From positions 62,001 to 126,000 of the forward strand of contig NZ_JAMCCX010000061.1 of the NCBI RefSeq assembly GCF_024706985.1: a DNA stretch of 64,000 bases. The letters are read 5' to 3'. A program made the translations under genes and the position numbers. Under the pieces are notes generated by a model. The model had not been told where the DNA came from, made no database searches, and saw nothing but the letters and a program-made list of their open reading frames with translations. Below are positions 2,176 to 3,444 of this stretch, one piece after another. This DNA comes from Alicyclobacillus sp. SP_1. GTDB taxonomy: Bacteria; Bacillota; Bacilli; Alicyclobacillales; Alicyclobacillaceae. The stretch's first letter is position 1, and each line of letters starts with the position of its first letter.

Positions 2176-2255
2176 TGGTATACTTTTACTGGACATTCAA
2201 GATGCCCGGTAGATTTTGTTTGACGGAACTTGTTTGACGGAATGGAGGTTAGAAC

Positions 2256-2729
2256 GTGAGCGTCTATTCATACGAAGTCGCCAAGACATCGGGTGAGACG
2301 GAATCTCTGCAAAAGTACGATGGACAGGTCCTTCTCATTGTCAACACTGCTAGTAAGTGAGGATTCACACCTCAGCTTGCAGGTCTGCAAGCCTTACACG
2401 ATAAGTATCAAGAGCGCGGGTTTTCAGTACTCGCGTTCCCGTGCAATCAGTTTGCTGGACAGGAGCCGCTCGGGAATGAAGAAGTAGCGTCTTTCTGCCA
2501 AGTGAACTATGGTGCAACATATCCGGTCTACGCGAAGATTGACGTCAAAGGACCCACGGCGCATCCACTGTTTCAATATCTGACCAATCAGAAGCGCGGC
2601 GTACTCGGCGGTTCTGTCAAATGGAATTTCACTAAATTTCTCGTCAACCGCAAAGGCGAAGTCGTTAAGCGCTATGCCCCAACGACAAAACCTGATGCAC
2701 TCCAACGCGATATCGAGAGCCTACTGTAA
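2256..2729 (+). CDS. Glutathione peroxidase-like selenoprotein (in-frame TGA as selenocysteine)
   Basis: Reading from GTG 2256 through a TGA at codon 35 gives an intact 157-residue thiol peroxidase. The TGA at 2358-2360 falls exactly at the catalytic position, in the context NTASK-[TGA]-GFTPQ, where the family has Cys or selenocysteine. The remaining signatures are present: FPCNQF with Gln65, a resolving-type Cys81 in FCQVNY, and WNFTKFLV with Trp123 and Asn124, giving the Sec/Gln/Trp/Asn tetrad. A SECIS-like hairpin follows the TGA. GGAGG at 2244-2248 supports the start. The protein should reduce hydrogen peroxide or lipid peroxides. Conventional gene callers would split it into two non-coding pieces. 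Alternatives are a nonsense-mutated pseudogene or a sequencing error at one base. Confidence 0.85.
2361..2400 (+). promoter_or_regulatory. Bacterial SECIS-like element
   Basis: Fourteen bases after the TGA codon lies a perfect 7-bp stem, GCTTGCA at 2375-2381 with TGCAAGC at 2386-2392, closing the loop GGTC. The core TTGCAGGTCTGCA closely resembles the apical hairpin of the Escherichia coli fdhF SECIS, whose loop is also GGUC. In bacteria SelB binds this hairpin and places selenocysteine at the preceding UGA. The loop is about one codon further from the UGA than in fdhF, within the range seen for bacterial SECIS elements. Confidence 0.8.
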
Positions 2730-2970: not shown

Positions 2971-3444
2971 TTGATTCACTTTCTGCTCTATCCGACGGCA
3001 GGTGTTCACAGAATCGGCCTGTTTGTCGGCGGCATCGTGTGGCTACTCTTTGGAATGTACTATTTTCGGAACAGAATGCGGGAGCGGCGTCTCGGCCTCG
3101 CCAGCTATTTGCTCGGTGGGGCGATGATCGTTGTGTACGAAATCCACATGGATTGGTACTGGCTGGTCATTGGACTGTTTCTTATTCTCGCGGGTATCGT
3201 CGCTATGCCGCGTTCGAACAGCTCGGGCACAAGGGCTGCTTTGCACCGCTCCGGGCAAAGAAAAGTCGGCAACGCGTCTGCTCCCGGAAAGTCTCAGGGG
3301 AAACAAAGAGCTAGGTCGGGCCGAACGACTGCGTCGAAAGTGGGCGCCAAGCCTTCTGCAAGCAGCGGCAAAGTCGCAACCAGCTCGAAGAAGCGTGTCT
3401 CCACTTCGTCGTCGCAAAGCTCGCGGTCCACAAAAAAATCGTAG
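2971..3444 (+). CDS. Small membrane protein with a basic Ser/Lys-rich tail, unknown function
   Basis: I do not recognise this 157-residue protein. Residues 1-75 hold two to three hydrophobic segments (VGGIVWLLFGMYYF, LASYLLGGAMIVVYEI, YWLVIGLFLILAGIVAM). Residues 80-157 are a low-complexity tail full of Ser, Lys, Arg and Gly, which would be cytoplasmic or exposed and probably disordered. The TTG start has GGAGGGGAG about 5 bases upstream. It lies just ahead of an ABC exporter pair in the same direction, with 53 bases between, but nothing shows that it is part of that transporter. Confidence 0.65.
   Translation: MIHFLLYPTAGVHRIGLFVGGIVWLLFGMYYFRNRMRERRLGLASYLLGGAMIVVYEIHMDWYWLVIGLFLILAGIVAMPRSNSSGTRAALHRSGQRKVGNASAPGKSQGKQRARSGRTTASKVGAKPSASSGKVATSSKKRVSTSSSQSSRSTKKS

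Follow-up and report, generated by a model that had tools for sequence, protein, structure and literature searches.

The bacterial proteins closest to the one considered here are the GPX-like selenoproteins, members of family PF00255 with a UxxT motif, which the available text of PMC13188914 predicts with high confidence to be selenoproteins, giving WP_010957027.1 as an example. The available part of a 2006 survey tabulates one selenocysteine (Sec) glutathione peroxidase (GPx), that of Treponema denticola, and records three selenoproteins for the Firmicutes/Bacillales (PMC1794560). Furthermore, putative selenocysteine formate dehydrogenases are described for Sulfobacillus in the accessible portion of PMC4378227, where the words searched brought up no selenoprotein peroxidase. 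A search of the open-access literature by title found no Sec GPx for this bacterial group.

The locus described here belongs to a stretch of 64,000 nucleotides from Alicyclobacillus sp. SP_1, hereafter called the window. It almost certainly encodes a Sec glutathione peroxidase whose TGA codon is read as selenocysteine, since the genome carries the genes for inserting this amino acid and the gene itself carries the RNA signal that they need (table 1). This is a real gene of an already known family, and one that is easily overlooked: the initial annotation had predicted that gene callers would miss it, and a standard list of open reading frames indeed represents it solely by a 75-aa 3' fragment.

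Table 1. Coordinates, within the window, of the predicted Sec-GPx gene and its elements.
Feature	Position	Strand	Description
Predicted Sec-containing glutathione peroxidase gene	2256..2729	+	GTG start, TAA stop 2727-2729, 157 residues with U35; supported by homologues
Shine-Dalgarno-like GGAGG	2244..2248	+	7 nt upstream of GTG 2256; read directly
In-frame TGA, predicted Sec codon 35, catalytic position (NTASK-U-GFTPQ)	2358..2360	+	this site also TGA in L102, L104 and L171
Predicted bacterial SECIS hairpin GCUUGCA-GGUC-UGCAAGC	2375..2392	+	stem of 7 bp; the GGUC loop (2382-2385) starts 21 nt after UGA
Cys81 codon, presumed resolving Cys	2496..2498	+	aligned with Cys of yeast HYR1 (3cmi); role inferred

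The same annotation had described a frame intact from GTG 2256 to TAA 2729 apart from one TGA at the catalytic Cys/Sec codon of the family, with the Gln, Trp and Asn partners in place, and all of this holds. When the frame was re-read, TGA 2358-2360 (codon 35) was its sole interruption; homologues align a Cys codon (107/110) or TGA (3/110) at this site, and Q69, W123 and N124 (window numbering), the partners of U35, are all present. The product matches PF00255 with 124.3 bits in a Pfam profile search (gathering cut-off 27), and its UGFT motif corresponds to the UxxT pattern of the bacterial GPX-like selenoproteins. It falls below the curated cut-offs of two NCBIfam equivalogs, PRK10606.1 (159.5/270) and gpx7 (140.3/207.3). 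The closest PDB entries by sequence are 26jk, a glutathione peroxidase of 158 residues (3e-54), and yeast HYR1 (3cmi, 2.2e-49); the search also returned 2p5q (2.4e-42), which we take to be poplar GPX5. As the gene is located about 64 kb along a 171-kb contig of a 3.4-Mb genome that is 99.98% complete, it is unlikely to come from a contaminant sliver.

The surroundings of the gene are less informative. Between 2100 and 3000, a scan for sigma-70-like promoters found 0 (0.7 in shuffles), which says little either way, and a scan for terminators returned nothing, as it did in shuffles. An inverted repeat (2775-2787 / 2799-2811), which pairs at 12 of 13 positions by eye, lies about 45 bases past the stop codon and went unreported by the terminator scan. 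The neighbouring open reading frames, 826-2175 and 2971-3444, matched no Pfam family.

The available text of PMC13188914 defines bacterial SECIS elements by a loop of 3-9 nt with a G in its first two bases, a stem of 4-16 bp, a distance of 16-37 nt from the UGA to the loop and a minimum free energy of -7.5 or lower. The hairpin at 2375-2392 lies within every one of these limits (loop 4, stem 7, GG, 21 nt); on its own it forms seven perfect pairs at -8.9 kcal/mol. It had been singled out at the outset as a GGTC-loop hairpin at the expected distance and almost identical to the core of the fdhF element; the comparison with Escherichia coli K-12 bears this out, as the 13-mer TTGCAGGTCTGCA is common to both and matches exactly. 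The 45 nt that start at the UGA fold at -15.2 kcal/mol, with a z-score of -2.76 against shuffles, 2 of 200 of which do as well. The 51 nt of fdhF itself reach a z-score of 0.10 in the same folding test, so that this score alone is no test for a SECIS. The coding motif itself partly dictates the UGAGG-CCUCA pairing at the UGA, as two chance-matching viral contigs fold alike. These contigs had matched a degenerate K-U-GFTPQ pattern as candidates for a phage-borne Sec-GPx, and the matches are attributed to chance because tblastn gave no GPx match and the frame stays open for just 7 and 13 codons beyond the TGA.

In this genome the exact 14-mer TTGCAGGTCTGCAA is unique to the GPx gene, which speaks for more than a chance occurrence. 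Allowing up to two mismatches gives 36 matches genome-wide, close to the 34 of a reversed-pattern control, and the idea of another SECIS with this sequence elsewhere in the genome was rejected. Among the 30 of these 36 near-matches that were given loci and scanned, four besides GPx survived a loose screen for an open frame with an upstream TGA; their frames resemble noise by eye.

The genome contains the dedicated machinery. Profile searches detected selA (C50:153002, 544 bits, cut-off 268), selB (C9:16526, 375 bits, cut-off 242) and selD (C105:60558, 392 bits, cut-off 125, with one internal TGA), and a tRNA-Sec was found at C50:66404 (64 bits, cut-off 47), which ARAGORN also calls tRNA-Sec, with anticodon TCA. 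The initial annotation had implied a Sec pathway and named the absence of selB, selC or selD as grounds for giving up its reading; the search for these genes and selA found all four over their cut-offs in the same genome, at loci that are scattered and form no single operon. In 14 control genomes, selB and selD exceeded the cut-offs in 2 each and selA in 1, and the tRNA-Sec model did so in 5, which indicates that the tRNA cut-off alone is lax; for example, the match of one genome (G008) at 47.2 is a tRNA-Ser according to ARAGORN. The same program assigns the matches of G002, G065, G037 and G017 to tRNA-Sec, with anticodon TCA.

The in-frame TGA of selD (L174:1089; C105, ~60588) is followed by a GGGUCC-GGG-GGACCU hairpin, its GGG loop 17 nt downstream, which is unlike the hairpin of the GPx gene. 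Judging from this arrangement, SelD is probably a selenoprotein too.

Most relatives of the gene encode a Cys enzyme. In an initial set of 110 GPx loci, the catalytic codon is one for Cys in 107 and TGA in three, so the family can do without Sec; the initial annotation had called the Cys type the common form in Bacillota. The best 80 named loci of at least 586 all carry Cys at this codon. The order-wide search found GPx in 37 of 59 genomes, with TGA in three of the 38 matches: the window's own gene (L101) and those of G017 and G058, two genomes of another family of the order that between them hold the loci L102 and L104. These two keep both the TGA and the hairpin (18/18 bases in G017, 17/18 in G058), in proteins only about 65% identical, and the single change in the 17/18 case, A to G, keeps a U-G pair. 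A draw of 398 genomes from the class, 329 of them with a match, provided at least one further and more distant TGA case among the matches listed, in G065 (L171, C2:20212-20676), with the TGA at the same codon and a different hairpin. On plasmids, 184 records hold relatives, all below 60% identity.

The Sec machinery occurs with either form of the peroxidase. selA, selB and tRNA-Sec were all found in G017, and tRNA-Sec in G065; in G058, an assembly that is 88% complete, selA was found and the best tRNA-Sec score, 44.1, is below the cut-off of 47. G002 and G037 have selA and tRNA-Sec yet a Cys GPx, which shows that a genome with the machinery need not have the Sec form. A genome of the same genus as that of the window, G001, has a Cys GPx, no selA match and neither selB nor tRNA-Sec over the cut-off; what scores highest there with the tRNA-Sec model is a tRNA-Ser according to ARAGORN. 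As far as searched (selA, selB, tRNA-Sec), the selenocysteine trait differs between these two species of one genus.

Between the window gene and L104, the hairpin codons (40-46) are identical at 7/7, compared with 45 of the 95 amino-acid-identical codons elsewhere; the values are 5/7 and 45/99 for the window gene and L102, and 5/7 and 45/103 for L102 and L104. The best 21-base window between the window gene and L104 starts at codon 40 (21/21), and that with L102 starts at codons 38-39 (20/21); when L102 is compared with L104, this stretch (19/21) is tied with several windows of the gene and does not stand out. When 110 GPx genes were scored for a correctly spaced G-loop hairpin, leaving aside L086, whose site was not located, the four TGA genes ranked 1, 2, 3 and 6. 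Downstream of the TGA, the window protein is identical to that of L104 at 82/122 positions (19/34 upstream) and to that of L102 at 83/123, and the 115 downstream codons compared with L104 differ 27, 22 and 75 times at positions 1, 2 and 3.

These data bear directly on the idea that the gene is a Cys GPx turned pseudogene when its catalytic codon recently acquired a nonsense mutation. Such a mutation takes one base change, from TGT or TGC, and would start from the residue that 107 of the 110 homologues carry. However, the same codon is TGA in three other genomes, coding constraint persists downstream of it, and a strong SECIS-type hairpin coexists with a full set of sel genes; this explanation is already largely refuted and has become very improbable. 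Readthrough of the UGA by another route (a near-cognate tRNA, Trp or Cys), or a mainly regulated stop yielding a short peptide, has in its favour that bacterial readthrough at Sec codons is usually partial and that Sec insertion depends on the selenium supply. The presence of both a dedicated machinery and a SECIS-type hairpin nevertheless makes Sec the economical reading, and the 107 homologues devoid of TGA have Cys, not Trp, at this site, leaving the other routes only a slight chance. A sequencing or assembly error in a Cys codon is scarcely credible, as the TGA recurs in other assemblies and the hairpin sits where a Sec gene needs one, with a 10-base core, GCAGGTCTGC, that none of the searched Cys genes contains.

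In the tree, the three TGA genes of the order cluster together (95/93), apart from the Cys genes in the family to which the window belongs. This suggests that the window gene already had the Sec form when it was inherited or transferred. L171 is placed apart from the other three, with a minimum of two changes and a single origin in 0% of 200 bootstrap trees from a bootstrap that had not settled; by an AU test, one clade uniting the four TGA genes is not rejected (p 0.366). A better tree, with L102 and L104 joined, escaped the free search, and the fine branching is therefore unreliable. The gene of G065 may possibly represent an independent origin of Sec-GPx.

Selenocysteine insertion, together with the activity, resolving Cys and reductant of the enzyme, can be proposed from the sequence as follows. 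When the ribosome reaches UGA 2358, SelB carrying Sec-tRNA-Sec would bind the hairpin 2375-2392, and Sec would be inserted as residue 35 in place of termination. Sec35, placed among Gln69, Trp123 and Asn124, would then reduce hydrogen or organic hydroperoxides, and the resulting selenenic acid would most likely be resolved by Cys81, with recycling by thioredoxin. C81 is aligned with the Cys of FCQLNYG in 3cmi, presumably the resolving Cys of yeast HYR1/Gpx3, and both C63 and C81 are retained in all four TGA-bearing proteins (L102, L104, L171 and the window protein). Yeast HYR1/Gpx3 and poplar GPX5 depend on thioredoxin. The alignment and the retention of the two cysteines thus point to a thioredoxin-type Sec peroxidase with a Sec35-Cys81 intermediate as the most likely form of the window enzyme; plant GPx relatives with a second, resolving Cys are reported in the accessible text of PMC9404953. 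Taken as a whole, from recoding through SelB and the hairpin to the Cys81/thioredoxin cycle, this scheme is very probably the right explanation of the locus.

Directly behind the Sec-GPx gene of G058, on the same strand, lies a gene for a MarR-family regulator (L172:1863-2393), OhrR-like to the eye. Its position would fit a peroxide-responsive control.

Other clients of the Sec machinery were sought in the same genome. A Sec formate dehydrogenase was rejected as the reason for keeping it, as the sole Fdh-alpha match that exceeds the cut-off (L179, C28:150784-152790), a formate dehydrogenase alpha subunit, carries Cys where Sec usually stands; none of the nine matches of this search is reported to contain a TGA. 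No selU exceeds the cut-off in this genome (best 25.4 bits, cut-off 219.75), and selU does so in 3 of 7 genomes: G017, G058 and G065. Within the window, 238 read-through open reading frames were listed and the TGA positions of 16 were viewed; in the nine scanned against Pfam, no family's best stretch crosses an internal TGA. With the GPx, SelD and Fdh-alpha families and one hairpin pattern searched, the selenoproteins identified in this genome are SelD and GPx only.

According to the available part of the 2006 survey, the Sec-decoding organisms that lack FdhA all have a Sec SelD, mostly with the selenouridine trait (PMC1794560). The genome of the window agrees with this part of the survey in its probable SelD selenoprotein, but selenouridine, the usual second use of SelD, was not found. 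Because the formate dehydrogenase is of the Cys form, no selU exceeds the cut-off and SelD and GPx alone were identified, the Sec system of this lineage might have been kept for a peroxidase, a conjecture that we consider rather doubtful. If it is true, then apart from SelD supplying itself, the peroxidase is the client that makes the Sec system worth keeping.

The gene adds a well-supported selenoprotein peroxidase to the class Bacilli, for which few selenoproteins are recorded in the available part of the 2006 survey (PMC1794560). It also offers a close contrast, between a species of the same genus with a Cys GPx and no Sec machinery over the cut-offs and the Sec species of the window, which makes it testable what Sec buys a peroxidase.

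Sec-GPx is an already listed family of bacterial selenoproteins, of which the window gene is a new member. It shares with the GPX-like selenoproteins such as that of T. denticola, likened here by family description, PF00255, a Sec codon at the catalytic site and the UxxT motif, and differs from them in its host lineage. The Cys GPx of Bacillota, exemplified by Paenibacillus (L021-L024), belong to the same family over 157 residues and are 59-61% identical to the window protein, but they have Cys at the catalytic codon and lack the GCAGGTCTGC core. Yeast HYR1/Gpx3 (3cmi) and 2p5q are close in sequence, and a Cys of the former aligns with C81, but these are Cys enzymes, and thioredoxin dependence is a prediction for the window enzyme. 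Finally, the hairpin shares with the SECIS of E. coli fdhF the identical TTGCAGGTCTGCA core with its GGTC loop, whereas the host gene is unrelated, the flanking stem bases differ and the loop lies 18 nt after the UGA in fdhF, compared with 21 nt in the window gene.
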